Of a stretch of DNA of 64,000 nt, positions 953-47,951 are shown in pieces (positions within the stretch are counted from its first letter, which is position 1; each line of letters opens with the position of its first letter). The position numbers were made by a program, and so were the translations under genes. Below the pieces are notes generated by a model. It worked only from the letters and a program-made list of their open reading frames with translations, ran no database searches and was not told the DNA's origin. Source of the stretch: Aurantiochytrium sp. KH105 (lineage: Eukaryota; Sar; Bigyra; Thraustochytrida; Thraustochytriidae); assembly GCA_003116975.1 (NCBI GenBank), contig BGKB01000078.1:124001-188000 (forward strand), given 5' to 3'.

Positions 953-3850
953 ATGGGCGGCCAGGATGAACAAGAAGACGAGGGCAATGGGTTCCAAGAA
1001 GAGTGGTACATGGCTATCGACAAGGCCACGAACAAGCCGTACTACTATAATTCATCAGGAGATATGTCGCAAACGCCGCCCCCAGGATTTCGAAGACCCT
1101 CCGAACAAGAGCAACGACGTGTGGCTGCGCGCAAAACCAGCTGGTTCGGTCAAAGACCAAGCCTTAAGCTTGAACCCGATGAAGAAGAAGGCGGGTTCGC
1201 AGCCCAAATCTCTGACGTACGCGCTCGGGGCATGAGCATGGTCCAGCGACTCAATCCGTTCGCCCCCGAGCTAGGCATCGGTGAAAAACGCGGCACTGTC
1301 CTTCGCGCCCTGTACGGCCACGTGGCTCGATTCGAGGACGAGCTCACAGTTCGACCAGGGCAAACACTCGTAGGCATTGAGATCGTCGAAGGCGGCGCCT
1401 GGTGGCTTGCAGAGCTAAATGGAAAGCGCGGTCACATTCCAGCAAATTATGTCGAGGTCGTGGAGCGCGACAATCAGGGACGCGTCCAAAAGGATAGGGA
1501 CTATGGTGCCTCGCCTTCGGGATGGTTCCAGGCGCAGGCGCAGGCTGCTCCCGATCGCCCGCCCAAGCCAGCCCGACTCGCCGCCAAGCAGGTTCCACGA
1601 GGTCTCAACGCTCAGCTCAAAGACGAAAAACGTGCTAGTAACAGCAACCCGATCAAATGGCTGTACCTGTGCCATACGTGGGGCTATGCCTTTGCTATCT
1701 TTGCCATCATCACGGGCGCTTTGGCATTTTTGTGGTATTCCGAGGCTTCAAAGGAGATTGGAAGCACCCGAAAGAAGCAGCTTCTTGGCACTGATCGTTC
1801 GTGGACGGCGCCTGCCGTCGTTGGCATTGGCGCTGCCTCGCTCGCTTTTGAATATGTCTTTGGCCTTCGACGTCACAACGGCGACGGGCTGCCAGAGGTT
1901 CCGTTACGGACAATCATGTATCTCGGCATGAGTGTGCCGTGCTTTACCAGCTACGCCACGATGATTACTGGCTTGATTGGTTGCGTGACGGCTGCGCTCA
2001 ACTTTGTTGCCTTTTACAACAACGAGGAAGGTTCTGGCAAGACGCAGCGATTCGTTCCCAAGGTTTCTTGGAGCAAGATGCTCACCTGGACGTACACGGA
2101 GGGATTCATTATGTTCGCCTTTGTCGCCATCAACGCGGGTCTCTTTGTTGCTCGCTATTATCTGGAGGAATCCTCGCGCCAGGAGTGCGAGCGCTCTACG
2201 CTAAACACAGAGTGCATTTCCGCCTTTGCGCCATTTGCCAAGGCGTTTGGAACCTCGCTCGACTTTACATGCGCGCTTGTTTTCTTTCCTGTGCTCCGTG
2301 CCGCACTCAACCGCATCTCCAAGATCGAGGTTGCGCCTAACAAGACGCTGGCTGTCGTCATCCCCATCAAGAAGAGCATCGCCTTTCACAAAGTGATTGC
2401 ATACTCGATTTTTATCGGGTCCTTGGGCCACGTAGGCTTTCACTATTTCAACTTTGCCATCGCACCGGGACCGTCCATCGATCGTTTTGGCGCCATTGCA
2501 CTTTGGACAGGCGGTGCGGTCACCTTTGGCATGGTCATTGTTTTTTGCGCAGCTCACAGTTCGGTGCGTCGTTCCAACTTTGAGGCGTTCTGGTGGAGTC
2601 ACCACGTTTTTCTTCTCGTGATTCCTCTTTTGCTGGCCCATGGACCCAAGGTGTGGTACCTTGGTGTCGTTGCTTTCCCTGCATACGCGCTTGACCGCAT
2701 CATCCGCACGCGTCGCGTCTCGCACAAGTTTTACGTCGACGCCGTCAGCTACGTTCACCCGGTGCTCAAACTGCAATTCTTTCCTGAACGACTGGATCTC
2801 TTTAGATTTCAAGCGGGCCAGTTCTTGCACCTCATTGTGCCGTATGTCAGTGAGAATGAGAGCCATCCATTCACCATTTCATCCTCGTGGGGCGATCTCG
2901 AGCGGGAAGGCTTTGTCAGCGTTCACATTCGTATCCAGGCAAAGGGTTCATGGACATACAATGTCATGAAGTACTTTCGCCTTCTCGCGGGCGCTGGTGA
3001 ACTGACTAGTGATGGCCAGCCAACCTCGTTTGAAAAGTTCTTTACTCACTTTGACAGCTCGGGCGTCGTGCAGCGCGGCCTGCACGTTGGTCCCGATGGC
3101 AAGCCGCTCATCCGCGTTGACGGTCCGCACTCGGCGCCTGCACAAGTGTACTCGGTGTACCAGGATGTGATGGTGGTGGGCTCGGGTATCGGTCTCACGC
3201 CTGCTGCTGCGATTCTCTCGGCTGTCACAAAGTACAAGTGGCGCAAAGGATTCTCGCCCGAGACGCTCCGTCTGTACTGGATTGTGCGTCACAACGAGGT
3301 TGAGAGTTTTGATTGGTTCGTCGAGACTTTGGTGACGGTGAGTCAACGTGTTCTCGCGGACCGTCGCGCCGGCGCGATCACCCAGAATCATCGTCTGCAA
3401 ATCAACATTTATGTCACCAGCGTGCCCTCAACCACGCAGGTGCGTCGTGTCACCGACCCTGGGGTCAGTCGCGGGCCTCCTCGTCCTTCGCGCCCTCCCA
3501 AAGGAGGCAGTTTTGACAACGTCGTCGACGAATACCTTGGCTTCGATGTCGCCTCTCTCAAGGCCTTGCTCAGCAAACCGACAGTCGCTGCGCGAGAGCA
3601 GGCAGACTTGCAGTTCTCTCACTACGGCGAGGTCCATGTTCCGAATCGTCAAGGTGATATTTGGGTCTGGAATGGTCGTCCCGATTGGGATAACATCTTC
3701 CAGGTCAACCGTGATTCGCGAGCAGAAGGTGTGCCTGAGATCGGCGTCACCTTTTGCGGTGCGCCTGGCGTCGCTCGTGCGCTCAAGGACAGCTGCGGCC
3801 GCTACACGGGTCCGGAGTGCAGGTTCACGTTGAATCAGGAGGTCTTTTGA
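953..3850 (+). CDS. NADPH oxidase (NOX family) with N-terminal WW-like and SH3 domains
   Basis: A 965-residue flavocytochrome predicted to pass electrons from NADPH through FAD and two haems to oxygen across a membrane. Residues 14-46 resemble a WW domain (W18, YYY at 30-32, prolines at 42-44) but the second Trp is missing. Residues 115-170 are an SH3 domain (ALYG, WW at 150-151, IPANYV). The ferric-reductase membrane part follows from about 236. Haem ligands fit NOX2 spacing exactly: H479 and H493 (14 apart), H550 and H563 (13 apart). HPFTISS near 640 is the FAD motif, GSGIGLTP near 743 the NADPH motif, and the C-terminus ends NQEVF, like NOX proteins (..NKENF). Class II SH3-ligand motifs (PxxPxR) occur at 203-208 and 842-847. 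No EF-hands are seen. The ATG at 953 starts the WW-like region. The family call is firm; regulation by the SH3 domain is inferred. Confidence 0.95.
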   Translation: MGGQDEQEDEGNGFQEEWYMAIDKATNKPYYYNSSGDMSQTPPPGFRRPSEQEQRRVAARKTSWFGQRPSLKLEPDEEEGGFAAQISDVRARGMSMVQRLNPFAPELGIGEKRGTVLRALYGHVARFEDELTVRPGQTLVGIEIVEGGAWWLAELNGKRGHIPANYVEVVERDNQGRVQKDRDYGASPSGWFQAQAQAAPDRPPKPARLAAKQVPRGLNAQLKDEKRASNSNPIKWLYLCHTWGYAFAIFAIITGALAFLWYSEASKEIGSTRKKQLLGTDRSWTAPAVVGIGAASLAFEYVFGLRRHNGDGLPEVPLRTIMYLGMSVPCFTSYATMITGLIGCVTAALNFVAFYNNEEGSGKTQRFVPKVSWSKMLTWTYTEGFIMFAFVAINAGLFVARYYLEESSRQECERSTLNTECISAFAPFAKAFGTSLDFTCALVFFPVLRAALNRISKIEVAPNKTLAVVIPIKKSIAFHKVIAYSIFIGSLGHVGFHYFNFAIAPGPSIDRFGAIALWTGGAVTFGMVIVFCAAHSSVRRSNFEAFWWSHHVFLLVIPLLLAHGPKVWYLGVVAFPAYALDRIIRTRRVSHKFYVDAVSYVHPVLKLQFFPERLDLFRFQAGQFLHLIVPYVSENESHPFTISSSWGDLEREGFVSVHIRIQAKGSWTYNVMKYFRLLAGAGELTSDGQPTSFEKFFTHFDSSGVVQRGLHVGPDGKPLIRVDGPHSAPAQVYSVYQDVMVVGSGIGLTPAAAILSAVTKYKWRKGFSPETLRLYWIVRHNEVESFDWFVETLVTVSQRVLADRRAGAITQNHRLQINIYVTSVPSTTQVRRVTDPGVSRGPPRPSRPPKGGSFDNVVDEYLGFDVASLKALLSKPTVAAREQADLQFSHYGEVHVPNRQGDIWVWNGRPDWDNIFQVNRDSRAEGVPEIGVTFCGAPGVARALKDSCGRYTGPECRFTLNQEVF

Positions 3851-4469
3851 AAAAGAGGGCAGCGGCCTCGCGATCACTTTGTCTTGACTCCATTTGTCGC
3901 GTCGAGAGCCGTATTCTTCGGGCGAGCCCGCCGTCTTTTGCTCGATCAACAAGGGAAAGGGCAAAGTATTTCTTCGCGGGTCGAGGTCTCGCGTTTGCGT
4001 TGCTGGTTTGCTGGCTGACTACGTTTGACTATGACCAACCACGTTTTGCAGTACTAACAGAGCAAAGCTACTTCTGATGTGTTTCGTTTGGTTTTATTTT
4101 TGTCCATTGCCGTGGGCCGAGGGTTCCCTGTCAGATTCAGGCGATGCGAAGCTACATTTCATCGTGCAAGGCTTGGTCTTTCGGACTTGGCGCTCTGACG
4201 CTCACGTCAAAGAGGCGAGGGCATAGGCGCTCTCTCTGCTGGCTTCGCTTCTTTCTCTCTCTTTCTGCGCCTCTCTTCGCAAGTCTCAGAGGCTCCACGG
4301 CAGCAGTGCAGCACTCGCTGCGGCGCGTGGTTCCGTGGTAGTTAGAACAGGACCTGACCTGCATGCTGGATCCCTCTCCTCCGCACGGCGCGACAGCGGA
4401 GGCAGAACCGGAAGGCGAGGCGAGGCAGGCGAGGCGAGGCAGGCGAGGCGAGGCAGGCGAGGCGAGGCG
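3851..4469. other. Intergenic between NADPH oxidase and XRCC2-like genes
   Basis: Both flanking genes are on the plus strand, so this holds the oxidase 3' UTR and the promoter and 5' UTR of the next gene. The only structure seen is the 15-bp tandem repeat at its right end, listed separately. No gene seen. Confidence 0.5.
4419..4469 (+). repeat. 15-bp GGCGAGGCGAGGCAG tandem repeat abutting the XRCC2-like start codon
   Basis: About three copies of a purine-rich 15-bp unit end directly at the ATG at 4470, so the repeat lies in the 5' UTR. The in-frame extension upstream begins at GTG (4335), not ATG, and translates the repeat as Gly/Glu/Ala/Arg filler. This supports 4470 as the start. Confidence 0.8.
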
Positions 4470-5450
4470 ATGCGGGCGGGCATCGCGGGCGGCGTGGCCG
4501 AGGAGACCGCGTTCGAGCTGCTGCGGCGCACGCGGGGCGGCGCAGGGCCCGGATCCGGCGCGCGCGGAGGCGGCCTGTTCGCGAGAACGGGGCTCCCGGC
4601 GCTCGACGCGCTGCGCGAGACACAGCGCGTCAAGCGCAGGGCGGCGGCGGCGGCGGAGGCCGCCGCGAAGAAAACCCCGGCGGCGGCCGCGGATGTTCTT
4701 CGCGATGTCGTGGAGATCTCAGGAGCGACGCAGACGGGCAAGACGGAGCTCGTGCTGCGCGCTGTGGCGACCTGCGTCTTGCCGGCGGAACTCGAGCTCG
4801 AGCTTGACGCCCACGATGGTGATGGCGAATCGAAAGCAGCGCCAAGGACGCTGCACTTGGGCGGCGAGGGCGCAAGTGTCGTCTTCTTCGACTCGGATCT
4901 TCGCCTGAACGTTGTCAGGCTTGCGGCCATTATTGCGGCCCCGTTGGAAAAAGCGTGTCTCGAAGGCCTCCTCTCCCAAAGCAAGGCAAGCGAGGTGGCG
5001 CGCGATTGCCTCGAGCGTGTGTTTCTGTACAGGTGTCCTGGGAGTCTGCAGGTTTTGTCGACTTTGCATTCTCTCACGACAGATTTCCTCCAGATGCAAA
5101 ACGTCAGACTTGTCGTGTTCGACTCCATTGCGGCGCATTATTGGCAAGACATGGAAACGGATTCGGTCTCTGCTGGCTTTCACGTATCGATTCCGCTTGC
5201 GATCCAGCAACTGGCCAGACGCCACATGGTCGCAATTCTGTGCGTGAAGCCGATGCTCTTCCAGCCACGCGGGGCTGACCGCGCCCCAGAGTACCTTTCG
5301 CAGACTTGGCAAAAACTCGTTACATTGCGTCTCTTCGCCGAGTGTCTCGATGGACACTCACGCTTTCGCCTTTCGCATCTCGATCAAGGCGAGGAACGCG
5401 TCTTTGACTTTTCCATTGATCACGCAGGCGTCAAACTTGCCACTTCCTAA
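4470..5450 (+). CDS. XRCC2: RAD51-paralogue, XRCC2-like
   Basis: A 326-residue RecA/RAD51-fold ATPase, somewhat longer than human XRCC2 (280). XRCC2 works in homologous recombination in the nucleus as part of the RAD51B-RAD51C-RAD51D-XRCC2 complex. Walker A is GATQTGKT at residues 85-92. The strand FFDSD (about 138-142) and VFDSIAAHYW (216-225) match the XRCC2 pattern LFIDTD and ILDSLSAFYW; the Phe/His-Tyr-Trp after the Walker B strand is typical of XRCC2 among the RAD51 paralogues. An N-terminal Ala/Arg-rich stretch (about 50-75) is probably disordered. The start at 4470 is the first in-frame ATG. Other RAD51 paralogues are possible but fit less well. Confidence 0.8.
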   Translation: MRAGIAGGVAEETAFELLRRTRGGAGPGSGARGGGLFARTGLPALDALRETQRVKRRAAAAAEAAAKKTPAAAADVLRDVVEISGATQTGKTELVLRAVATCVLPAELELELDAHDGDGESKAAPRTLHLGGEGASVVFFDSDLRLNVVRLAAIIAAPLEKACLEGLLSQSKASEVARDCLERVFLYRCPGSLQVLSTLHSLTTDFLQMQNVRLVVFDSIAAHYWQDMETDSVSAGFHVSIPLAIQQLARRHMVAILCVKPMLFQPRGADRAPEYLSQTWQKLVTLRLFAECLDGHSRFRLSHLDQGEERVFDFSIDHAGVKLATS

Positions 5451-10867: not shown

Positions 10868-13800
10868 TCAGGCCACAGTGAGGGCGTCCGGGCGCATGGC
10901 CGAGACGATCTGCGCGGCGAGCTCGCGACGGTGGCTCGGCGTCACGCCGAGCTCGCGCGCCTTGCGCAGCCGCCACCGGAGGACGTAGCGCCGGATGCGG
11001 AGAGAAATGTGCGCTCGCGCAACAACGTGCGTCAACGTGGGGTCCTGGCCCACCTCCTCGCCCGCCTCGCCCGCCTCGCCGGCCTCGTCGTGAGGCAGAC
11101 CCGCACTTGCGCTGTTGTCGGCAGGAGGGAAAAACTGACGAATAGAGCCCGAGTAGGCGAGATGGCTCGCGCCGACGCGGTGTTGCAGGAATGCCCGTAC
11201 CGTCTCGGGCACGTCCTCGACGAGCATGTTGATGTCGATGAGAGCAGCCAGCGTCGCGTAGAACTCAATCTGACCATTACTGTCGATTGGAACGTGCCGA
11301 CCTTGCATCATGCGCAAAACGTGGCCCGGCGTAAAGCCCAGGTCCTCGTATGTGCTCAGCTTGCTCAGACCCAAGGGCGCCTCCAGGCGTACTACGAGCT
11401 TTGTGAATGCCTCTGCAGGCAGGTGCATCGGAGACCGTAATGCGTGCTGCAGGTTCTCACAGTGAACGTGACCATCGATAGTCTCGTTCGCAGCGGCCTT
11501 GCGCAACGCTTGCACGCGCTCTTCAAATAGCTCATTCCAAGCGCGATTGTACTCTCTGAAGGAGTGGTCATCGAGGTGATCCTTGATGCCATCAATCTGG
11601 TAGATGTGCGCGCGCTCGAATTGTGTCGTGTAGTTGGCAAGAATGACCGCTACAAAGAGGTTCATGAGGATCATCTGCGTGAGCAGCACGAAGGAAATTA
11701 CGAACCAGCCCGCGTGCGCCGGGACAGCTTTCTGTAGCTCGTGCATGTAACCATTCCAGTCTTCGCCTGTTGAAAGAACCACAAGTGTGTAAAAAGCGTT
11801 GCCAAAGGTGTCAAAGTTGGCGAGCTCGGAAAAGTATTCACCAGTAGCATCGTCTACACTGAGATTACCTCCAAAAAGAGACATGCCCAGCACCGAGTAA
11901 ATGAAAAAGACGAGACCAATAAGACCTGAGACGTTGAGGACGGGAAAGAGCGTCGTCAGTAGGGTCATGACCAAAACTTTGAGCGGACGAAAGAATTTCA
12001 GCAAACGAACCACACGTAAGACGCGCAGCGCCTCGATGGCCCGCAAGACGGCCACATCGACGGGGGCAGAGCTCCACACGAGACTCCAGTCCACCAGAAC
12101 AAAGAGAACAATTGAAAAGTCGAAGCAATTCGACTTTTGCTTAAAGTACCGACGCGGCCCCAGGCCGAGCAACTTGAGCGCCGCCTCCAGCACGTAAACG
12201 GCGCCAAAGGCCCCATCGATGGCCCAGAAGACCTTTTCAAAGGCGCTCGAGGCGCTCATGTGCTCTGCCATCATCCATACTGTGTTTGCAACAATGACGG
12301 CGTTCACAACGATGTCAAAGGAGGGGCTTGTCACAACGTCGTAGACTCGGCTGCGAAAATGTCCAACGGGGCGATAGGCCTCCTTTGATGGCTTGAATGG
12401 GCGCTTCATGCCTCGCTGGTGGAATTCGAGCCAGGCTCGCTGCGTGGTTGTCATAAACGCGTTGCCCGTGACTTGATCCGAGGAGTCCAAATAAGTGTTG
12501 ACAAGAACAGCGACAAAGATTTGCAAAACAAAGCATTGCATGGTGAAGAGGAAGACGACATAAAAGATCGATGCCCCATCGTTGGATCCGCGAATCGGCC
12601 CGGATCCAATGCTAGTGATGTCTGCGATGGCATACATTGGCTCCATCCATAGCTCGAGCGAGGACGTCTCAAAAAGGACCAGCAGCGAAGAGCCAAAGTT
12701 GTCAAAGCTGTAGGGCGTCGCCAGCGCATTGGTGCCGTGGATGTTGCCGTACGTTGGCAAGGACCACACGTACTCCACGCCTGCTTCCTCGTTCACCCCG
12801 GCGCACAACCGATCATCCGGACACGCCGTCTCATCGACGCCGTAGTCAGGATATCGAAAGCAATCGCGCGCAGATGGCGCGTAATTGCGAACACAACTTG
12901 CTGCTGCGGCTGCTGTTGCTGTCACAGAGTCGGCGTTGCTTGTATTGCTGTTTGTCGTGGATTGTGCTGAGAGTGGGCACTCGTAGCAGGCATTGAGGCG
13001 GCCTTGAAAGGCAGATGATGCGGAGATGGAAAAGATGGCGAAAAAATATAGACAGAGGACCATGACTTGGCCGCAAGGGATGATCGCTTTGGCAAAGGAC
13101 TTGGCAACGATGCGCAAGCCTTCAAAGCGTTGAATAATGCGTAGCGGGCGCAGCACGCGCGCGATGCGAATCACCTTGACTGCCTCGGTGAATTCGTCTT
13201 GAGGCAGGCAGACGTCGAGGATGGAGATCACGAGAATAGCAAAGTCCAGCGCATTCCAGGGGTTTCGAAGATAGGATCCCTTGTGACGCACAAACCCCAT
13301 TGCCAAAATGCGTAGAATGGCTTCCAAAGCAAAAATGACGGTGATGGCAATGTTGATGGCAAGCATGCTCTCGGCCGTCGCGACTGCATGTACAGGGCTA
13401 TCCAGCGCCAGCAAAACGCAGCTCCAAATAATGGTCAGCATGATGAGAGCGTCAAACCACGCTTGATGGACCAAAACGCCGACGGCGATCCGCAGAGGGT
13501 TATCGTAAGGGAGCTGCCCACACAGCGAGGCATAGCGAAAGCCGGGCAGCTTGATGAGCTCCCTTGGACTCAGATTGTACTTTTTCCGCTGCTGTCGATT
13601 CAAAATGTCTTGCAGCGAGGTTTCATGCGGTGGTTTTGCAACCACATCGGGCTCGTCGTCAGTCGTCTGTGCCCCACTTGAGTTCGAATCAGCACTTGCG
13701 CTGCCGCTGGTATTGCTGCTGGCGCTGCTGCGGGCACTTCGGCTATTCCAAGACGCAAAAGAGGTCATCATCTGTTTTCGGCGAGCCGAGAGATCGTGTG

Positions 13801-16800
13801 GATTTGTTCCAGAGGCTGACTCAAGGTCCGGAGGACTCGGCATGCCATCGGTCGCAAGTCTTCGTGACTGCGCAGAGCTTGCGTCCGTGGCTTTGACGTT
13901 GGCTTTTGTCCGAGTGGCGATAGAACGGAGAGATGCCGTTCTGGAGTTATGGGTTTCGCGGAGTTCCTTGTGATTTTGCACAAAGGTATCAATCAGAATA
14001 GCGAGGAAGAAGTTGAGCACGACAAAGGAGCCAATGGCGACGGAAAGGACAAAGTAAATGGTAGGCAAATAGCTTCCTGTGCGCTCCACGACCTCAAACA
14101 TGGCTCCATTCCAGTCTTCGCTCGTGATGACCTGAAAGGTTGTGACAAAGGCCCAAAGGAAATTGTCAAAGTTGACACGCGGGGGGCAGTGCCAAACAAA
14201 GGTTCCGTTGGCGAGTTCACGGTAAAAGTCGCCCGCCAACTTGGTGCAATCAAAGGCCTCGTTCGGGACCCAGATTGTGTTTGATGCCGGCTCGCTCACG
14301 GCGTCGGGGTAGATAAATGTGCGCACAGGGGTCATTTCCTCAACGATCATATGACCACCAAACAAATGAAGGCCTGCGACCGCGAATATGTACATAATGA
14401 GTGCAAGAAAGACCAAAAAGGGCGCCACATGCACCACGGTGCAGTTGAGCGAGGTAAGAATCTCGTGATAGCCCGGAACGTAGGTATTCGGGCCAAGAAT
14501 TCGCAAAAAGCGTAAGACGCGCAAGGCTGACAGCGAGAGGGACGAAGGGAAAGCGAGCTCGATGTAGCCGATGAGAACGACAATGCAGTCAAAGAGGTTG
14601 AAGACGCTCTCAAAGTACCTTTGTGCGCCATCGCCTGCGATACGGAGAAGAATCTCCAGCGTAAAGAAAGCTAGAAAGACAATATTGCTCACCGTCTGAG
14701 CGTGCGTGAGCTGCTCAGATTGGCCAAAGTGAAACGTAGCAAGACAAACAGCGTTGGCGCCAATGAGAAGAAGGGCCAGGTGTCCGAACCATGCCCGCTC
14801 CGTGATGTTGTGCGAAATCCAGAGGCGCGTTTGCGCAAGTCTTCCCCCGCCTTCGACCTTGCGCATTGAAGAGGAGCTTTCAATGTATGAGGGAAGGCGA
14901 GATTTCGGCTGGCGCTGGACATTGCGCGAGCGCCAATGGCGAAAGGAGGCGTTCATTTGCGCTTGAACAAGACCGTCGCTGGCATTTTTTTGACAGTCGC
15001 GGTCTTCGTGTTCGAGTCTATCTTCTCTTTTGTCTGTATCTTTGCTTTGCAGAGCCGATGCTGAGGTCAAGCCATCTGTCGATGCAGGCCCTCGAGCCGC
15101 CTCGATATCATCGTTCGAACGTTCCTGCGTCTCGTTGCTCGAAGGTAATGGAGATGGCAACTCGCTCGCAAACGTACGCTGACCGTTTGTGGGCGCATCC
15201 TGCAGGTCCCTTAAGGTCGCAATTTCACTCCCGTCGTATTCTTGTTCTGACTCCATGGTCTGATAGACGGAGGCCAGAGAGCTGTGCGCATCGAGGAATC
15301 GCAAACGGGGCTGATTCAATCGATCGAGAGCACGTGCATGCCGAATCATTTTCGCTTTGTGAAGACGCATCTCACTTTCGATGCGCTGAAAATGCGGGCG
15401 CCAGAAACTAGTGTAGTCGAGGGCATGGCGCGCGCGAAGCTCGAGATAGTCCTTTTCAGAAACAATGTCGTAGTCCGGATCATCTACGCGTTGTTCGTAC
15501 GAGAAAATGAGGCGCATCTGGGTAATGGCGAGCTGTTCAGAAAAGGGCCGGGTCGCAAAGGAACGCACGGCGGCGCCGCGGCGCTCGAGATTTGCCACCA
15601 TGGTCTTGATTTCCGTGTTGGCGCGGCGCATCACGAGTTGCCTCTCTTCGTCACGTTTGCGTACACGCTTGTAGTGGACGCTGAGAACGGCGACCAGGAG
15701 ATTGACCATAAAGTAGGCGCCAAAGAGAATGAGCAAGAGAAAATAGATGCCGAGAGCGCGAGGCCCCGTCTCGAAGAGGCCGAACATGATGTCAGACCAG
15801 CCTTCGAGTGTGATGATTTGGAAGACAGTGAAAAGCGAAATGCCAATATTGTCAAACCCTTGCAGGCCAGCGTGCGGGTTGAAGTCTGTGACGACGCAGA
15901 CAAGCCCTTCCGGGCACGCTCTGCCATATCGATCTGGGCGCAGACTACAGTATCTCTCTGTCTCTTGCGCTGGGACGAGATAGGCGTTGGCGGTCTCGTC
16001 AAAGACAGCACAGTGCTGGCGCAGCTTTCCCTTGAAGAGGGTGACCCCGACCAAGGCGAAAATGAGCAGAATGGCCGTGCTGAAGAGCAGCACTTCGCCA
16101 AGCTGGCGTCCTGCATTGAGCATGCTTTCCACGAGACTCTGCAGCGCAGGGAATCTGTTCAAAGCACGCAATGGCCTTAGTACGCGTGCCAGTCGAAGAA
16201 GCATGAACAGCGAGGAGGCGCTGCCTTGGATGAACAAGGGAATCCAAGCTGCGAGTAAAATACTGAGATCGAGGAGATTCCATGCGTCTCGAAAGTACCC
16301 TGAGGGTTGCGGGGTGGCGCCCAGTGCGACGAGCTTGACAAAGAACTCGAGCGTAAATGCTGCCTGGAAGAACCATTCGGCGCGCAAAATGAAGACGTTG
16401 ATGCTTGAGGGGATCCCGAGGACGCTGTCCACGGGCTGCCAGCATCCGAGCAGAATGGCGCTCGCCAGGATGAGGGCCAGGACGCCGAGCTCGAAGGCCT
16501 TGCTTTGTACGGCTCGAATGCAGGCTTGCCGGACGGAGTTCTCCCGCGTCAGACACCCGAGGGCGACGGGCGCGAAGGCGAGGGGTCTCCGACTAAAGCC
16601 AAAGTTCCCCTCGTACGCGAGGCCGCTGGTGTCCTCGGGCCGCGGGGCGCACACGTCTGCTCTGGCGCTGCGCCCGTTCTCGTCCTCGTCCTCCTCTTGG
16701 CCGTGCCACGCGGGCCCGTCTGGCCGGACGCGAGCTCGGGTCGCGGCGGCGGCCTGCGCCGGGTCCTCCGCCCCGCGCGCCGCCGCCGAGGGCCGCGGCC

Positions 16801-16837
16801 TCTTGCGCGACGCCGCGGGGGCCGCGTCCGCCAGCAT
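10868..16837 (-). CDS. Four-domain voltage-gated cation channel alpha subunit (calcium-channel type)
   Basis: A 1,989-residue plasma-membrane channel in one uninterrupted frame with four six-helix repeats. S4 voltage sensors with spaced arginines are clear: RLARVLRPLRALNRF (I), LRVLRFLRILG (II), IRIARVLRPLRIIQRF (III), LRVLRVVRLLKFFRPL (IV). Pore-loop glutamates fall at about E345 (TLEGW), E907 (TSEDW), E1395 (SLELW) and E1692 (TGEDW), giving an EEEE ring that favours Ca2+ selectivity; DEKA and EEKE, the sodium-channel and NALCN rings, are absent. Repeat III has an unusual filter and a long Cys-containing extracellular loop (about 1285-1385). Long Ser-rich loops join I-II and II-III. After repeat IV comes an EF-hand-like region and a basic IRRYVLRWRLRKAR stretch resembling an IQ site. 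The frame's first codon (16840) is TTG, so the ATG at 16837 is used. Confidence 0.93.
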   Translation of the reverse strand: MLADAAPAASRKRPRPSAAARGAEDPAQAAAATRARVRPDGPAWHGQEEDEDENGRSARADVCAPRPEDTSGLAYEGNFGFSRRPLAFAPVALGCLTRENSVRQACIRAVQSKAFELGVLALILASAILLGCWQPVDSVLGIPSSINVFILRAEWFFQAAFTLEFFVKLVALGATPQPSGYFRDAWNLLDLSILLAAWIPLFIQGSASSLFMLLRLARVLRPLRALNRFPALQSLVESMLNAGRQLGEVLLFSTAILLIFALVGVTLFKGKLRQHCAVFDETANAYLVPAQETERYCSLRPDRYGRACPEGLVCVVTDFNPHAGLQGFDNIGISLFTVFQIITLEGWSDIMFGLFETGPRALGIYFLLLILFGAYFMVNLLVAVLSVHYKRVRKRDEERQLVMRRANTEIKTMVANLERRGAAVRSFATRPFSEQLAITQMRLIFSYEQRVDDPDYDIVSEKDYLELRARHALDYTSFWRPHFQRIESEMRLHKAKMIRHARALDRLNQPRLRFLDAHSSLASVYQTMESEQEYDGSEIATLRDLQDAPTNGQRTFASELPSPLPSSNETQERSNDDIEAARGPASTDGLTSASALQSKDTDKREDRLEHEDRDCQKNASDGLVQAQMNASFRHWRSRNVQRQPKSRLPSYIESSSSMRKVEGGGRLAQTRLWISHNITERAWFGHLALLLIGANAVCLATFHFGQSEQLTHAQTVSNIVFLAFFTLEILLRIAGDGAQRYFESVFNLFDCIVVLIGYIELAFPSSLSLSALRVLRFLRILGPNTYVPGYHEILTSLNCTVVHVAPFLVFLALIMYIFAVAGLHLFGGHMIVEEMTPVRTFIYPDAVSEPASNTIWVPNEAFDCTKLAGDFYRELANGTFVWHCPPRVNFDNFLWAFVTTFQVITSEDWNGAMFEVVERTGSYLPTIYFVLSVAIGSFVVLNFFLAILIDTFVQNHKELRETHNSRTASLRSIATRTKANVKATDASSAQSRRLATDGMPSPPDLESASGTNPHDLSARRKQMMTSFASWNSRSARSSASSNTSGSASADSNSSGAQTTDDEPDVVAKPPHETSLQDILNRQQRKKYNLSPRELIKLPGFRYASLCGQLPYDNPLRIAVGVLVHQAWFDALIMLTIIWSCVLLALDSPVHAVATAESMLAINIAITVIFALEAILRILAMGFVRHKGSYLRNPWNALDFAILVISILDVCLPQDEFTEAVKVIRIARVLRPLRIIQRFEGLRIVAKSFAKAIIPCGQVMVLCLYFFAIFSISASSAFQGRLNACYECPLSAQSTTNSNTSNADSVTATAAAAASCVRNYAPSARDCFRYPDYGVDETACPDDRLCAGVNEEAGVEYVWSLPTYGNIHGTNALATPYSFDNFGSSLLVLFETSSLELWMEPMYAIADITSIGSGPIRGSNDGASIFYVVFLFTMQCFVLQIFVAVLVNTYLDSSDQVTGNAFMTTTQRAWLEFHQRGMKRPFKPSKEAYRPVGHFRSRVYDVVTSPSFDIVVNAVIVANTVWMMAEHMSASSAFEKVFWAIDGAFGAVYVLEAALKLLGLGPRRYFKQKSNCFDFSIVLFVLVDWSLVWSSAPVDVAVLRAIEALRVLRVVRLLKFFRPLKVLVMTLLTTLFPVLNVSGLIGLVFFIYSVLGMSLFGGNLSVDDATGEYFSELANFDTFGNAFYTLVVLSTGEDWNGYMHELQKAVPAHAGWFVISFVLLTQMILMNLFVAVILANYTTQFERAHIYQIDGIKDHLDDHSFREYNRAWNELFEERVQALRKAAANETIDGHVHCENLQHALRSPMHLPAEAFTKLVVRLEAPLGLSKLSTYEDLGFTPGHVLRMMQGRHVPIDSNGQIEFYATLAALIDINMLVEDVPETVRAFLQHRVGASHLAYSGSIRQFFPPADNSASAGLPHDEAGEAGEAGEEVGQDPTLTHVVARAHISLRIRRYVLRWRLRKARELGVTPSHRRELAAQIVSAMRPDALTVA

Positions 16838-16913
16838 CAACGGGTCGATCCGGTCGCCCGGTCGAGGGGGCGAGCGCTCTCTCCTCCGTCCCTCCGCCGC
16901 CCCGCGCCGCCTG

Positions 16914-34204: not shown

Positions 34205-36715
34205 TTAGGCCAGATCAACTTCCTTGGGAGGCGAGCTGGAGATATCGCCTGTCTCGACGCTAACCCAAAAGGACTCGCCCGTCTCGCGATGGACGTATTC
34301 TTCCCAGCTGCCAACCTCGCCAATTTTGAAGCCATTGGCAATGACGGTGGCCGCCTTGGAGTTGGCAGGGCGACTTGTCTTAGCCTCGCCGGCAGACGAA
34401 GAAGCCGAGGCCACTGGAGGCGGCGAGGTGGGCGCGGTTGCCTTGGGCGCAGCAGCCTTGGCATGCGATGCGAGCTCAGCGCTGTTGGGAAAGGAAAACG
34501 AGGTTCCCGCGCTTGCGCCGAGTCCGCCGCCAGCAGCGGTGGACGAGGACGCCGCCCCCTGCGAGCGCTCTCCCATGCGCAAGCTAATATCGCGCGAGTA
34601 GGAGTCCGAGTTACGCCGCGAAATGGACAGCGGCGGCGTAGAGCTGTTGTTCGTGGAGGATCCGGCGCCGCTGCTGCGCTGACGATGGTGCTGCGGATGG
34701 GGTTGCAGGTTGCTTGCATGGCTCGAGGAGTTGCTGGCAGCTCCAGAGCCGACACTCATGCGCTCTGAATTGTCGCGAAAGGGCACATGGACCGCGCGCG
34801 CATTGTCCGTGTATGATCGGGTGTTATAGGTTGCAAAGATGTCGCGCTCGTCCACGGGGGGCTCGAGCGTGGTGCGGGCGCCTCCAAGGTAACGCTGGCT
34901 GCCGGCACCCTCGTATTCCCCGCGCGGGTACAAGCCAACCTCTGGGGGCGTAATGTAGCCTGTGTCCTGCTGCGGGCGTTCTGGCGAGTTGTGCTTGGAT
35001 CCCTGACGGTTCAGAGTGGCGCGCGACGCGTTGTTCGAGGAGGCCTGGAGGATCTCCTGCTTGGCGACAAAGCCGGTGTTTCCCGAAGGCCCGGAGGGCC
35101 CCGAAGGCCGCGAGGCTCCAGTGTTGTAGTCTGTGCCCGCGGGTCCCGTGTTGTTGCTGGCGCCGGCGGAGCGAGTCGACTTGTTGTTTTCGGTGGCCGC
35201 AAAGAGGATCTCCTCGCGGGTCATGGAGAACTTTTCGTACTTGGCAAAGAGCAACACGACGAGACCGACGGCGGTGCACCAAAAGACGGTAAAGGCAAAG
35301 AGCAGGACGCGGAGTTCGTACGAGGTTTCGGCGAGGACCGAGACAATGATGTTGAAGATGCCGAAGACGAGGACATTGTTGACAATGAAGAAGATCTGCT
35401 TCGACTCGCCAAGCACGCTGCCTAGGTTGCGCACTCGAAAGGCGAGAACGACGCCGAGCACCACCAGGGCTCCGAGGAAAATGTACGAGATGACGAGCAT
35501 GACGTAGCCCACGCCCGTGGACTCGCAGTCGTAGGCGCCCATGTCCTCGTTAAAGTATGAGACGGGGGGCTCGATGGCGGTCCAGAGAATGAGCAAGACA
35601 ACGTCGATGGCTACGAGGAGCGCAATGATCTTGAGCAAGAACATGTCGGTAATGTGCGATGCGTCGCCGGGGCCGTAAAAGACGCGCCAGACGCGCCAGA
35701 TCTTGAGCAAGAGGACGGCCATGGTAAAGGTGAAGGCGAGATCGAACCACCACTTGCGGACGATGCAGACCGCCGCGGACTCGGGCTCAAAGGCGCTGGG
35801 GAAGATGCTCGTGTTGACGAAGATGCCACCGACGCAGAGCAGCTTGAGAAAGAGGAGCTGGCTGAGCTGAATGACGGGTTTGTCCCTGTGAATGTGAATA
35901 AAGATGAGAGCCGAGAGCGCAAGCACAATGCCGACGATGGCAATGTTGGTGGCGAGGATGGCGACCCAGCCAAGCCCGGAGCTGCCTGCCGAGGTCGGGG
36001 CCGCGGTCTCCTCGATGGATCCTGCCGCGACGCAGGCGCTGGTCGTGGCGTCCCAGTCGCAGAGACTGTCCATGGCGTCGCAGAGAGCCTCATCTTTGTT
36101 GAGCGGGCAGACCACGTCTGGGTCTTGGGTGGGCGATCCCGTGGGCCGGAGCGTGGTCGGGGTCGCGGTTGTCGGTGCCCCCGTGGTAGGTCTGTACGTG
36201 GGTTTGGGCGTGGGGTACGTCACGGGCGGCACGGGCGCCTCGGTTGGCCGGTTGGTGGGCGGGTCCGTGGGCTGGGGCGTGGGCTGGGGCGTGGGCTGAG
36301 GCGTCGGTCGCTTGGTCGTGGGGCGTTGGGTAGGCTCGGGCGTGGGCGCCACGCTGGGATAGGCCGTCGGGGAGACGGTAGGGTACGGGGTGTCGTCCGG
36401 CTCGCTCAAGGAGCAAGACTCGCCGGTTCTGCCTGGGAAGGGGTCGCTGCCAAAGGTGTCTTCGTCGCAGGTAAAGGTATAGTTTGCGGCCCACTCGCTG
36501 GAGCTATAGACGTACTCGCCGGCGATGCCGAAGCGGACCCAGCCTGCGCGCGGGGTCGTGCACTCTTGCTCGTACATGCATATTTCGTAGCCGTAGTCGA
36601 GGTCGGCCGGGTCCACGGCGAGGGTTTGCTGCGCCAGAGCGAGCGCCGCGACCACTGTGACGGCTGCGCTGCCGAGGCGCGCACGGGCCCTCCGCGTCGC
36701 GGCCACGGGGGGCAT
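34205..36715 (-). CDS. Class C GPCR-like seven-helix receptor with Thr/Pro-rich stalk and C-terminal WW-like segment
   Basis: An 836-residue membrane protein. Residues 1-34 are a signal peptide (hydrophobic 17-33). The extracellular part has Cys at 46, 52, 83 and 101, then a 90-residue Pro/Thr repeat (109-199) and a small Cys unit (CPLNKDEALCDAMDSLCDWD). Seven hydrophobic helices span 248-492 and fit the 7tm_3 family (GABA-B/mGluR type): IHIHRDKPVIQLSQ after helix 1, CIVRKWWFDLAFTFTMAVLL and LLKIWRVWRVF in helix 3, DVVLLILW in helix 4. No Venus-flytrap ligand domain is present. The cytoplasmic tail is Ser/Asn/Gly-rich and ends in a WW-like unit (SWEEYVHRETGESFWVSVETG, 803-823). G-protein signalling is inferred; ligand unknown. 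Start ATG at 36715. Confidence 0.85.
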   Translation of the reverse strand: MPPVAATRRARARLGSAAVTVVAALALAQQTLAVDPADLDYGYEICMYEQECTTPRAGWVRFGIAGEYVYSSSEWAANYTFTCDEDTFGSDPFPGRTGESCSLSEPDDTPYPTVSPTAYPSVAPTPEPTQRPTTKRPTPQPTPQPTPQPTDPPTNRPTEAPVPPVTYPTPKPTYRPTTGAPTTATPTTLRPTGSPTQDPDVVCPLNKDEALCDAMDSLCDWDATTSACVAAGSIEETAAPTSAGSSGLGWVAILATNIAIVGIVLALSALIFIHIHRDKPVIQLSQLLFLKLLCVGGIFVNTSIFPSAFEPESAAVCIVRKWWFDLAFTFTMAVLLLKIWRVWRVFYGPGDASHITDMFLLKIIALLVAIDVVLLILWTAIEPPVSYFNEDMGAYDCESTGVGYVMLVISYIFLGALVVLGVVLAFRVRNLGSVLGESKQIFFIVNNVLVFGIFNIIVSVLAETSYELRVLLFAFTVFWCTAVGLVVLLFAKYEKFSMTREEILFAATENNKSTRSAGASNNTGPAGTDYNTGASRPSGPSGPSGNTGFVAKQEILQASSNNASRATLNRQGSKHNSPERPQQDTGYITPPEVGLYPRGEYEGAGSQRYLGGARTTLEPPVDERDIFATYNTRSYTDNARAVHVPFRDNSERMSVGSGAASNSSSHASNLQPHPQHHRQRSSGAGSSTNNSSTPPLSISRRNSDSYSRDISLRMGERSQGAASSSTAAGGGLGASAGTSFSFPNSAELASHAKAAAPKATAPTSPPPVASASSSAGEAKTSRPANSKAATVIANGFKIGEVGSWEEYVHRETGESFWVSVETGDISSSPPKEVDLA

Positions 36716-43244: not shown

Positions 43245-45884
43245 TTGATCCTAATCTGCACGGCGAACGCTTTCTACGAGTGGAGACGCGACGCAAACAC
43301 TCTTGGACCACGGTGGCACGCAACCCTCCCCCACCCCTCCAAATTCAACACTGAGAATTTGGGATTGCCTCCAAGGGCTCTGTCCTTTTACGATGTACAG
43401 CTGGCAGCGTGTGCGGCCAGATGAGAGGAGTCCGGGCGGCTGACCTCAATGGGACTTGGGGCGATCGCGTCGTAACACCACGGGACTTCGGGCCTGGATT
43501 CCCGAGGATGCCGCCGGAGGTCCAAGAGCAGCTCGGTCCAGAAATCTTGCTCGTTGTGAGGCCTTTGGACGTGTCAATCCAAAATATTTCAATCCAAAAT
43601 ATTTCAGTCCAATCCCGTGTCTGGTCCAAGCACCACGTTTCAAGACAACAAGCTTTTGAGACCTGCGTCATGCGCATTCCTTTGATGTTCCGCGCGTCGC
43701 ACTTTTGTTTGCCAAGTCCCAAGGCTCCAACAGCGTCCTTTGTGTTTTTATCCGCCCGAGATGGTGGGGCAATTGGCCTTTAGTGCACAACTAGAGTTTA
43801 TTGTCCACATACTCCCCGGCCATAGTGAGTTCTTGCCCTTGGCCAGAGTCGACATCTTCCGTCCCTACGGAGCAACGTGGGTCGGCGGAGCTGACGGGGC
43901 ACCCATTCGCGGGCTCGAGCGGAGAACCCGCATTCCTTTTCACTAAAAAAATTCTTCGCAGTGCTCATTGTCAAGGCTGGCAGATGCCCTTTTCTTGTTC
44001 CTTGTCGGGTGTTTGTGTGAGCTCGCAAGCTTTCGCGCTGACGGGTCCTCTCGTGCGCTGCGTGCCATTCCAGACAGGGAGTGGAAGGCAGGCAGACTCC
44101 CCGAGGGGCCAATCCTGCTCATCTCCATGCAAAGAGCAAACCAACCAGGCTGAGGCAGTGATGGCACGATGACGGACGGACAATGCCATAAGTCAAGGCT
44201 CTCAGCAGACAGACATTGGGAAAGCTGTCCCAAGCCTGTTCGACACAGCACAGTCGCTCTGCAGTGCTTCGCGTCTGATCCCGCGCCGCAGCCACCTAGT
44301 AACACGTTGTCTGTCAACTGTAGCGCGCGGCAGGTCGGTCAAAGCGGACTCATTTCAGTTGTCGTCGCCCAAGCCAAGCCAAGCCTCGCCTCGACGCCCC
44401 ACCTGTTCGCGCTTGAGATCCATGCGGCAGAAAGGGGAGAGAGAAAGGGGGGGGGGAGGGCAAACGTCGCCCATCGGTTCTGAACGTCTGCGAGCCCCAG
44501 GGACCCCGGAGCTCCCTAGCCAGCCAGCCAACGGGCCAACCAGCCTGCCGGCTTCCAGATTGCCCAATGGTGTGAAAATAAGGGGAAAATTGCAGTCTTG
44601 CGGCCCACTGTGGGGATATGGGACCTCTTCGTTTTGCTCGAGCGGCCGAATCGTCCCCCTTTCGCGGGAATGCAACACCATTTGCAATCGGCCGCAAGGG
44701 TTCCGTCCCTGGCGCAAGACTGTCGCAGGCTGCCTGAAAACGCTCAAGCGCCCACGCTTTGGCCTTATACTTTCGGCTGTGTTTGGGGCCGCCGACCCCA
44801 TTTGTCTTTTCATGACAAGATGTTTCTCCATGGTTCTTGTCGTGCTGGGAGCCCACGTCATGGAAATTGCAAGTTAGTGAATGCAACTACACTGCATTTA
44901 AATTAAAATAGGTATGCACGGATCGCTTGTATGCTCTGACAGTGAGTCAGCCCAGAGTTCAAAGAACTGATCGCTGGCAGCCCCCAGCCCCCCCCCCCCT
45001 CCCCCCCCCCCCAAAAAAGTGTGGCGGTTGGATCACCGGCAGGCAGCATAGGCAGAGATGTTCAAAACTGTTCGCTTGCAGGCTTCAGACTGATCTCTCG
45101 CAGGCTTTTAGAATGACTCGAGGATTCACAAGCAGTATTTGACTGTGAAATGACCATGCTGCTGGCTGGCGACATTTCTATATCGCTTTCTGCGTAGCTG
45201 TCGAGCAGCGTGAGAGTATTCGGCTCTGTTAGTCGTAATATGGCCGAGGGAGGAAGCGTCCCGTTCCGGGCCCAGCAAAAAGTGCCCGGCTTGCTTTGTC
45301 CCGCTTCGGGCTTTACGAGTATGGGAGCCACTGCATCTCCACGTCCGCGAGGCGCAAGGAGGTTATTTGTATTGCATCGCACAACAGCCAAGTAGTGCTA
45401 CACCCAACGCTGCACGTCTTTATCAAGTTGCGAGCCTTTAATTTTCACGTCAATTGCCGACCGCTCGGCTGGTCAGCGGCGCTCTGCCCGTTGTGTTTTT
45501 TCGATGGCTTGGGGCTGTGACTATTGTTCTCAGCCCAGCCATCATCCCAGCACAAAGGAAGGTCCGCATCGTCAATCGGGGACCACGCTTTGCTCAACCT
45601 GTAGCATGTCTGCGGTGGTGGATCGGCGGATGCAGACAAAAGTTATGAGCATGGAGACAGCGCGTCTCGCCGGCATTGGCGAAGAAGGACCCGGCGAGTG
45701 CACGCAGAGCGCTCGCTCAAATACCAACTTGTCTTACTGACAGTGATGAGTGACAGTGACAGTGTCGGCCTGCCTGCCTACCACCACTGATGAGGACAAA
45801 GTTAGCTTGCTGGCTGGCTGGCTGGCTGGTGCTGGCTGCAGCGACGGGGCGCAGCACGTTGACGTGGAGTATACGTATGCGATA
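43245..45884. other. Long intergenic region between divergent myosin and GUF1 genes
   Basis: About 2.6 kb with no supported gene. Seen here: a direct repeat of TCAATCCAAAATATT-like units at 43575-43608, a G run at 44448-44458, C runs at 44988-45012, GCCAGCCA words near 44516, and a TGACAGTGA cluster at 45736-45765 shortly upstream of GUF1. Confidence 0.45.
44988..45012. repeat. Polycytosine tract
   Basis: Two runs of about ten cytosines separated by one T. On the minus strand this is a G tract with G-quadruplex potential; it may also be an assembly weak point. Confidence 0.85.
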
Positions 45885-47951
45885 ATGCGCGCCTGGACAG
45901 CTCAGATGCGAGCCCGATGTCTCGAAAAGGCGTGGGTCGCCTGCGTCGCAGCGGAGATGTCAGAGCGCCTGCTGCCGAGACACGTCCGCATGGCCTCGAG
46001 CTCGTCGTCCTCAAAGGGGCCAAAGGAAGTGATCTCGGTGGTGGATCAGGCTGCGAGCATCCCACGCGAGCGCATGCGCAATTTCGTCATTGCCGCCCAC
46101 GTAGATCATGGCAAGTCTTCTCTTGCAGACAAGCTCTTAGAGATCGCTGGCAATCTCGAACTCGCCGATGGCGGCGAGCGCCAGGTGCTCGATGATCTCA
46201 AAGTTGAACGCGAGCGAGGGATCACCGTCAAGGCACGAACAGCTTCAATGGTTTTCGACGACCATCTCCTCAATCTTGTCGACACTCCGGGCCACGTTGA
46301 CTTTGACTATGAGGTCAAGCGAAGCCTGCAGGCCTGCCAAGGCGCCCTTCTCCTCGTGGATTCTACGCAAGGCGTGCAGGCGCAAACACTCGCCAATTAC
46401 AACCTTGCGCGCGACGCAGGACTGCAAATTATTCCCGTGCTCACTAAGCTTGACCTCAGTCATTCGGATCCCGCCACTTCGCTCGAGCAAATCGAGCAGG
46501 TTTTCGGCATACCCGAAGACGAAGTGATCTGGACCAGTGCCAAAACGGGAGAGGGCTGCGATGAGATCTTGCCCGCCGTCATTAAGCGCCTACCGCCCCC
46601 TCCAGATCCACAACCGCTGTCCCTGCAGGCAATAACGGCCGACGAAAATGCGGCCTCTCCTCCTGTCGCGAAACACACAATGAGCGGGCTCATCTTTGAC
46701 AGTTGGTACGATCGCTACATGGGCGTGGTTTGCCTCGTCTACGTGGAAAAGGGCACTCTTCAGGTGGGCCAGGAATTTTTCACTGACTCGCAGGCTCTTG
46801 GGCAAAAGCGCTCACAAGGCTTCCAGGTCCAAGAGGTTGGCATGCTGGTCCCCCAACCCATGGCCTGTTCAGCGCTGCGCCAAGGCCAGGTAGGCTTCAT
46901 GTTTGGCAACATCAAAGACAGCTCCTTGGCACGAGTGGGCGACGCAATTTCTGACCACCTCGACGGTCTCACTCAGGACGAAGAAACCCTCGAAGCTCGC
47001 AAGGTACGGTCCACACCCAAAGTGTATGCGAGTATCTTTCCACTTGATGGCGGTGACTTTGACGAGCTGCGCAAATCGCTCGAACGCCTTCTTCTGAACG
47101 ACTCGAGCGTGGCGATGCGACCCGAGACAAGCGGAGCTCTTGGCAATGGTTTTCTTATGGGTTTTCTCGGCAAGCTTCACATGGAGGTTTTCTTTCAGCG
47201 TCTTGAGGATGAGTTTGGCACGGAAATCATCGCCACAGCCCCGGCAGTGCCATACTGGGCTGATATGCGGGGTACGGGCGAGCGTGTTCGTGCGGATATC
47301 CCTGCGCAGTTGCCTCCCAAGGAAATGGTTGAACAGTATTTGGAACCCATGGCCCACACCACCGTTATTGCTCCCATCGAGTACATGGGCGAGATCTTTC
47401 GTGTCTTCAAGGAACGCCGCGGTGTTCAGACAGGAGTGGATCACATGGACGAGACGCGGGTCGTGATCAAGCACGATGTTCCATGGCAGGAGGTCATTGT
47501 CGACCTCCACGATGTTCTCAAAACCGTCACAAGCGGATTTGCCTCTCTCGAGTATGAGGAGGCCCCGCCTCGGGTCGCAGATATCACCAAGGTAGATATT
47601 CTCGTCAACGGTAATGCCGTGGACGCGCTTGCCTTCGTTGCACATCGTTCCGTGGCTGCTCGTCGTGGTCGAACCGTCGCACAAAAGCTACGGTCGGTGA
47701 TTGCGCGTCAGCAATTTGAAATTGTCATTCAGGCCGCCAGTGGACCCAAAATTATCGCGCGCGAGCGCATTCCGCCGTTTCGCAAAGATGTGCTTACCAA
47801 GTCTGGCAAAACTGTCGGCGGTGGCGATATGTCGCGCAAGCGCAAACTTCTCGAAAAGCAAAAGGCAGGCAAGAAGAAGATGAAGTCTGTCGGCAATGTT
47901 GAGCTTCCGCAGTCTGCCTTTTACGCAATGAATGAGCGCGACGACAAGTAA
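45885..47951 (+). CDS. GUF1: Translation factor GUF1 / LepA (EF4), probably mitochondrial
   Basis: A 688-residue GTPase of the LepA/EF4 family, which back-translocates stalled ribosomes; the eukaryotic form GUF1 acts in mitochondria. G1 is AHVDHGKSS near residue 70, G2 is RGITVKA, G3 DTPGHVDFDYEV, and the G4 position reads TKLDL. LepA-specific parts include GALLLVDSTQGVQAQTLANY and the C-terminal domain VDALAFVAHRSVAARRGR, then GGGDMSRKRKLLEKQKAGKK and VELPQSAFYAM. Residues 1-60 are Arg/Ala/Ser-rich without acidic clusters until later, consistent with a presequence. The frame is open to 45750, but the upstream part is repetitive, its first codon is GTG and 45885 is the first ATG. Later in-frame ATGs cannot be excluded. 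Confidence 0.95.
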   Translation: MRAWTAQMRARCLEKAWVACVAAEMSERLLPRHVRMASSSSSSKGPKEVISVVDQAASIPRERMRNFVIAAHVDHGKSSLADKLLEIAGNLELADGGERQVLDDLKVERERGITVKARTASMVFDDHLLNLVDTPGHVDFDYEVKRSLQACQGALLLVDSTQGVQAQTLANYNLARDAGLQIIPVLTKLDLSHSDPATSLEQIEQVFGIPEDEVIWTSAKTGEGCDEILPAVIKRLPPPPDPQPLSLQAITADENAASPPVAKHTMSGLIFDSWYDRYMGVVCLVYVEKGTLQVGQEFFTDSQALGQKRSQGFQVQEVGMLVPQPMACSALRQGQVGFMFGNIKDSSLARVGDAISDHLDGLTQDEETLEARKVRSTPKVYASIFPLDGGDFDELRKSLERLLLNDSSVAMRPETSGALGNGFLMGFLGKLHMEVFFQRLEDEFGTEIIATAPAVPYWADMRGTGERVRADIPAQLPPKEMVEQYLEPMAHTTVIAPIEYMGEIFRVFKERRGVQTGVDHMDETRVVIKHDVPWQEVIVDLHDVLKTVTSGFASLEYEEAPPRVADITKVDILVNGNAVDALAFVAHRSVAARRGRTVAQKLRSVIARQQFEIVIQAASGPKIIARERIPPFRKDVLTKSGKTVGGGDMSRKRKLLEKQKAGKKKMKSVGNVELPQSAFYAMNERDDK

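Follow-up and report, generated by a model that had tools for sequence, protein, structure and literature searches.

Can the parts of an NADPH (reduced nicotinamide adenine dinucleotide phosphate) oxidase that the human phagocyte system spreads over several proteins be carried by one chain? The question is raised by a gene at positions 953..3850 (plus strand, as for all of its features given below) of a 64,000-nucleotide stretch of contig BGKB01000078.1, hereafter the window. The gene is an intron-free open reading frame (ORF) of 965 codons without internal stops, its coordinates including the stop codon, and encodes in one frame and in this order an SH3 domain, a proline motif, a block of four membrane helices, a haem core and two lobes for flavin adenine dinucleotide (FAD) and NADPH. 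Mutations in p22phox, the membrane partner of human NOX2, cause chronic granulomatous disease. Our analysis makes it probable that the product is an NADPH oxidase on a single chain, with a p22phox-like four-helix bundle fused ahead of the NOX core and with the SH3 domain and the proline motif on a cytosolic N-terminus.

The oxidase core

The catalytic part consists of a six-helix haem core (2078..2722, residues ~376-590; Pfam Ferric_reduct above cut-off, and alignment to NOX5), a FAD-binding lobe with the motif HPFTISS at 638-644 (2723..3157, residues ~591-735; Pfam FAD_binding_8, 27.9 bits against a cut-off of 22), and an NADPH-binding lobe with GSGIGLTP at 743-750 and a C-terminal Phe (3158..3847, residues ~736-965; Pfam NAD_binding_6, 50.6 bits against 22.2, and alignment to NOX2). 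NOX5 was the best sequence match in the PDB (E 1.6e-31). The haem histidines stand two per helix, H479/H493 and H550/H563, with spacings of 14 and 13, and the earlier note on this DNA was right that all four, as well as the cofactor motifs, are intact. The signature of enzymes producing reactive oxygen species (ROS) given by Zhang 2013 (His-101, His-119, Thr-178 and Gly-179; PMC3591440, drawn on here, like the other papers cited, from excerpts) has its counterparts, in the NOX5 alignment, in H479, the extra histidine H497 and the TG pair T519/G520, all of which are kept in a paralogous oxidase described below.

These sequence features place the encoded protein in the NOX family, within the ROS-producing ferric reductase superfamily, and it is predicted to produce superoxide. 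By homology to NOX2 and NOX5, electrons would pass from NADPH to FAD, through the two haems and across the membrane to oxygen. Pfam searches found no EF-hands in the window protein (E ≤1) or in the paralog (E ≤10), and the enzyme is probably calcium-independent.

A p22phox-like block ahead of the core

Hydropathy and a fragment model place about four further transmembrane helices (1649..2038, residues ~233-362) ahead of the six core helices of the oxidase, a feature that had escaped the earlier note. The fragment model was built with AlphaFold2 for residues 228-363 from four aligned sequences (two genes with two alleles each) and shows four long helices and one short one, with a predicted local distance difference test (pLDDT) score of 68.9; a full-chain model, with the window gene first and its allele and both paralog alleles aligned to it, reached a pLDDT of 32.6 and was not used. 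When the block model was compared by Foldseek with 350,542 PDB chains, human p22phox took ranks 1, 2 and 3 (8gz3_A, E 0.021; 7u8g_B, E 0.038; 8kei_A, E 0.14), in each case with a probability of 1.00 and with template modelling scores of 0.61-0.63, among 228 matches at E ≤10, none of which reached E ≤0.001. As modelled, the block would be a four-helix bundle of the p22phox fold.

The extra helices might instead belong to some other type of tetraspan module, such as CD20, MARVEL or tetraspanin, unrelated to p22phox and like it only in being a small four-helix bundle. The top fold match of all the chains searched, however, is itself the partner of a NOX enzyme, and its sequence identity to the block, 17-18%, compares with at most 12% in the other matches listed. 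Sequence comparison also speaks against this alternative, which we consider unlikely. The block profile aligned colinearly with human p22phox over 118 columns (hhalign, E 0.0012, with a probability of only 19%). In a rerun with the 133-residue membrane part the score was 24.8, against a maximum of 21.6 in 150 block shuffles. Nor was it equalled by any of 39 fragments of real membrane proteins, of which 34 came from three further proteins encoded in the window and 5 were pieces of the oxidase core, so that the colinear alignment surpassed all 189 shuffles and fragments; the highest-scoring fragment, one of the core pieces, reached 23.2 with just 25 columns aligned. The block of the paralog gave a significant Smith-Waterman score of 61 against p22phox, reached in 0, 1, 2 and 0 of 1000 shuffles (in blocks of 8, 12 and 20, and whole, respectively).

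The aligned positions include residues of known importance. In the cryo-electron microscopy structure of NOX2 with p22, a buried polar network of N11, E53, R90, H94 and Y121 is described as conserved and as a set of hotspots for chronic granulomatous disease mutations (PMC9711523). These five align, in that order, to H241, E300, R319, Y323 and N350 of the window protein, positions assigned by alignment. All five are polar and invariant in 4/4 sequences, and two of them, the glutamate and the arginine, are identical to the human residues, which again argues against an unrelated tetraspan module.

Several results weigh against the resemblance to p22phox. The window block taken alone gave a non-significant Smith-Waterman score of 37, which 212, 222, 151 and 124 of 1000 shuffles reached under the same four schemes; the Pfam p22phox model PF05038 was matched neither by the whole protein nor by the block fragment nor by the paralog; and phmmer with the window or the paralog fragment singly returned no p22phox. 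Moreover, the block profile matched 15 PDB sequences at E ≤10 with the GLP-1 receptor in the lead (11 matches, best E 0.021), the others being three p22phox entries (E 2.5-4.6) and one uncharacterized protein. The GLP-1 receptor is a seven-helix protein, and its match, which spans only part of the receptor, was taken as chance. A search of the genome itself with PF05038 gave no match above cut-off and two sub-threshold ones (16.7 bits, E 0.186), the first of which (L008) falls at an ORF resembling by eye a membrane nucleotide cyclase and was rejected. Scanning prokaryote genomes with two short peptide patterns yielded 119 matching stretches, among which no relative was confirmed, such patterns being liable to miss distant ones.

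The likeness between the block and p22phox is stronger in predicted fold and weaker in sequence. It is argued jointly from the fold, the colinear alignment, the key residues and the fact that p22phox is a known partner of NOX enzymes, and not from any one significant score. The block is labelled p22phox-like here and is not filed in the p22phox family, because a Pfam match, a proline motif in the tail and the status of a separate subunit were all lacking.

In the NOX2 complex, p22 packs against M3, M4 and M5 of the catalytic subunit through its own helices M1 and M4, and it carries the docking site of p47phox (PMC9711523). The block of the window protein would take up the position of p22phox alongside the haem core and would stabilise the core at a fixed 1:1 stoichiometry; the tether between the bundle and the first core helix measures ~15 residues by eye. 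Since the number of helices in the bundle is even, the chain would enter and leave it on one side of the membrane, presumably the cytosolic one, where both the N-terminus, with its SH3 domain and proline motif, and the first residues of the core would lie.

The N-terminus and its SH3 domain

The SH3 domain (1295..1462, residues 115-170) was recognised by three Pfam models, all above cut-off (SH3_9, 34.4 against 30 bits; SH3_1, 29.4 against 22.9; SH3_2, 24.5 against 21.8), which together extend over residues 118-170, and it stands in the same open frame as the core, in agreement with the earlier claim that it is part of the catalytic chain itself. Among the matches listed, its closest PDB relative was the SH3 domain of Acanthamoeba myosin IB (E 2e-11), and an SH3 domain of p47phox (Neutrophil cytosol factor 1) was among the best 60 of 131 matches. 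By eye, the domain retains an acidic RT loop, EDEL, together with the Trp and a terminal IPxNY, and the second Tyr of ALYDY is substituted; judged from these features, the domain may be a PxxP binder. As regards other features of a p47phox-type organizer, the Pfam search found the one SH3 stretch and no PX domain in the window protein.

The WW-like unit that had also been proposed for this chain was not confirmed as a WW domain. It (992..1090, residues 14-46) scored 14.9 bits with Pfam WW against a cut-off of 26.9 and covered only positions 3-21 of the 31 in the profile, and the second signature Trp is absent from the translation by eye; at most it is a degenerate WW-like unit.

An SH3 domain so placed could in principle be an artefact of the gene model, arising where neighbouring genes have been run together or where translation in fact starts downstream of the SH3 domain. 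The assembly that was searched (76 Mb, 367 contigs) holds a second copy of the gene on another contig (C255, locus L002), 99% identical and equally open; this pair, like the corresponding pair of the paralog, is read as alleles. The two window-gene alleles differ by 44 synonymous and 8 nonsynonymous changes, of which residues 1-232, SH3 domain included, hold 11 synonymous and 1 nonsynonymous. Because of this ratio the N-terminus is most likely constrained coding sequence, the counts behind it being small. The ATG has A at -3 and G at +4 and is preceded by an in-frame stop. Met codons occur at 1, 20, 38, 94 and 96 and next only at 322, inside the membrane block, so that no product started at an ATG could lack the SH3 domain alone, a check that covers ATG starts in the unspliced frame. 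With the fused block present in a separate paralogous gene as well, an artefact of either kind is very improbable.

A paralogous oxidase

The paralog, of 853 amino acids and with 39% identity to the window gene, was found at L003:1498-4059 (minus strand) and also at L004, its two copies lying on contigs C121 and C20. It shares the p22phox-like block and also has proline motifs at its N-terminus, and neither SH3 nor WW was found in it by Pfam search. Identity to the window gene amounts to 41/126 in the block, 79/213 in the haem core and 5/32 in an insert of the NADPH lobe. The haem ligands, HPFTISS and the C-terminal Phe are kept along with the ROS signature, and the NADPH motif shows one Ser to Ala change. 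Since the block is built into at least two diverged paralogs, the fusion would predate their split.

In a third gene of ferric-reductase type (L014:298-1998, plus strand; 566 amino acids) Pfam recognised Ferric_reduct as well as NAD_binding_6, both above cut-off, and nothing resembling the p22phox-like block was seen. L006 and L015 appear to be alleles belonging to the group formed by L014 and the SH3-like loci L005 and L007 described below.

Proline motifs and the possible role of the SH3 domain

Both PxxPxR motifs named in the earlier note, at 203-208 and 842-847, were recovered in our pattern scan. The first lies in PDRPPKPAR (1550..1576, residues 200-208), which holds two overlapping class II matches, and the second in PPRPSRPPK (3476..3502, residues 842-850), also with class II matches, in the NADPH-lobe insert. 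Matches to the class II pattern PxxPx[RK] begin at residues 200, 203, 314, 842 and 845; the five observed compare with a mean of 0.35 in composition shuffles, of which 0/5000 reached five, while three clusters were reached in 29/5000. No PxxP was found by the motif scan between the four-helix block and the haem core, the first motif preceding the block.

It had further been proposed that the SH3 domain could bind these motifs. The paralog does have a class II match, PPKPIK at 8-13, likewise N-terminal to its membrane block, and residues 203-208 of the window protein face its PIKPAH, three residues past PPKPIK; at least one class II match arises by chance in 1171/5000 shuffles of the paralog, so that its presence is unremarkable. 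Other PxxP matches lie at 11, 30, 64 and 65. The motif at 842-847 is not retained there (SPRSAT), and the paralog has no SH3 domain, so that the two genes do not have in common a pairing of SH3 and motif in cis. Because neither the second motif nor the insert around it is conserved, a pairing of the SH3 domain with that motif has little in its favour beyond the match itself.

For the first motif, which begins ~30 residues downstream of the SH3 domain, autoinhibition in cis is plausible. The SH3 domain might fold back on this motif on the cytosolic side of the p22-like block, as a switch in place of the contact between the p47phox SH3 domains and the p22phox tail, and its release or rebinding in trans might control the docking of the dehydrogenase lobe; we put this forward tentatively. 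In the alternative reading the SH3 domain leaves its own chain free and works in trans, recruiting either a partner or the paralogous oxidase, whose N-terminal proline motifs it would bind. This is at least as likely because the paralog has the motif and no SH3 domain, and we would give it nearly an even chance. It is in keeping with the several PxxP matches of the paralog, with the lack of conservation of the second cis motif, and with the animal oxidase, in which the contact between SH3 and proline motif is made between chains (PMC3591440). Set against it are the short distance to the nearest class II motif, which favours binding in cis, and the fact that no partner has been identified.

Two other loci hold SH3-like sequence by eye: an ORF at L005:1291-3312 (minus strand) has two SH3-like stretches, and one at L007:391-1686 (minus strand) has paired SH3-like stretches and a LIM-like end. 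Each is a possible SH3 adaptor.

Other genes of the window

The host is a eukaryote by its genes, with matches to Tsr1, a 7tm_3 receptor and Myosin_head; the intron-free oxidase genes and a guanine-plus-cytosine content of ~57% may hint at a thraustochytrid. The oxidase gene is followed by a 371-amino-acid ORF (4335-5450, plus strand) with no Pfam match at E 1e-5, the first part of which crosses a GGCGA-rich simple repeat at ~4410-4470. Further along are a protein of 1990 amino acids in a single open frame (10868-16840, minus strand) with four Ion_trans stretches, by inference a voltage-gated channel of the four-domain type; a class C G-protein-coupled-receptor-type protein (7tm_3) of 836 amino acids (34205-36715, minus strand); and a LepA/EF4-type GTPase of 733 amino acids (45750-47951, plus strand).

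Significance and comparison with known systems

In open-licence literature, searched mostly by titles and the starts of abstracts, the matches listed included neither a NOX enzyme with a fused p22phox-like domain nor one with an N-terminal SH3 domain. As excerpted, Massari 2022 confines p22phox to opisthokonts (PMC9421330), Kawahara and Lambeth 2007 mention an amoebal p22phox gene as suggested but unclear (PMC2121648), and Zhang 2013 calls the origin of p22phox unknown (PMC3591440). If the host is not an opisthokont, as we suspect, the fusion bears on both the restriction drawn by Massari 2022 and the statement of Zhang 2013. A p22phox-like bundle in one chain with a NOX would make the origin of p22phox a directly testable question. 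One could imagine a self-contained oxidase of phagocyte type in a protist outside the animals and fungi, one paralog of which carries its own SH3 organizer, and a p22phox that is older than the opisthokonts and was perhaps born as a domain of an oxidase; we hold this broader picture to be possible, though somewhat short of an even chance. In practical terms, p22phox is essential for NOX1-4 (PMC9711523), and a p22phox-like bundle joined covalently to a NOX core would be a single-gene version of the human complex with fixed stoichiometry, useful for expression and structural work. Were the SH3 domain to act in cis, the protein would in addition offer a model, in a single chain, of the p47phox switch.

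Among the known enzymes, NOX5, RBOH and DUOX share the catalytic core but carry EF-hands (PMC3591440), which were not found in the window protein. The extra helix M0 of DUOX occupies the site of p22 (PMC9711523), an analogous use of that site. The fungal NoxA/NoxD pair is alike in combining a calcium-independent NOX with a membrane partner homologous to p22phox (PMC9421330), and NoxA has a class II proline motif near its NADPH lobe (PMC2121648). NoxD differs in being a separate protein. We know of no SH3 domain on the fungal NoxA chain. That a protist NOX carries an SH3 domain in its catalytic chain is not wholly new, since the Naegleria gruberi enzyme has one inside its C-terminal NADPH-binding domain (Zhang 2013, PMC3591440); in the window protein it is N-terminal and stands ahead of a p22phox-like block, of which the excerpt of that paper makes no mention for Naegleria.

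The closest likeness is to human NOX2 (gp91phox) and p22phox, which together form cytochrome b558. The earlier note had already made the comparison with NOX2, which is apt, but mainly by way of the p22phox-like block that the note had missed. The two systems have in common the haem core, the FAD and NADPH lobes, the absence of EF-hands in our searches, a four-helix bundle that is p22phox or resembles it, and SH3 domains and proline motifs that are presumably cytosolic. They differ in how these parts are distributed: in the human system the bundle is a separate subunit with the proline motif at its C-terminus and the SH3 domains are on p47phox and p67phox, whereas in the window gene all parts are on one chain and the proline motif comes before the bundle.
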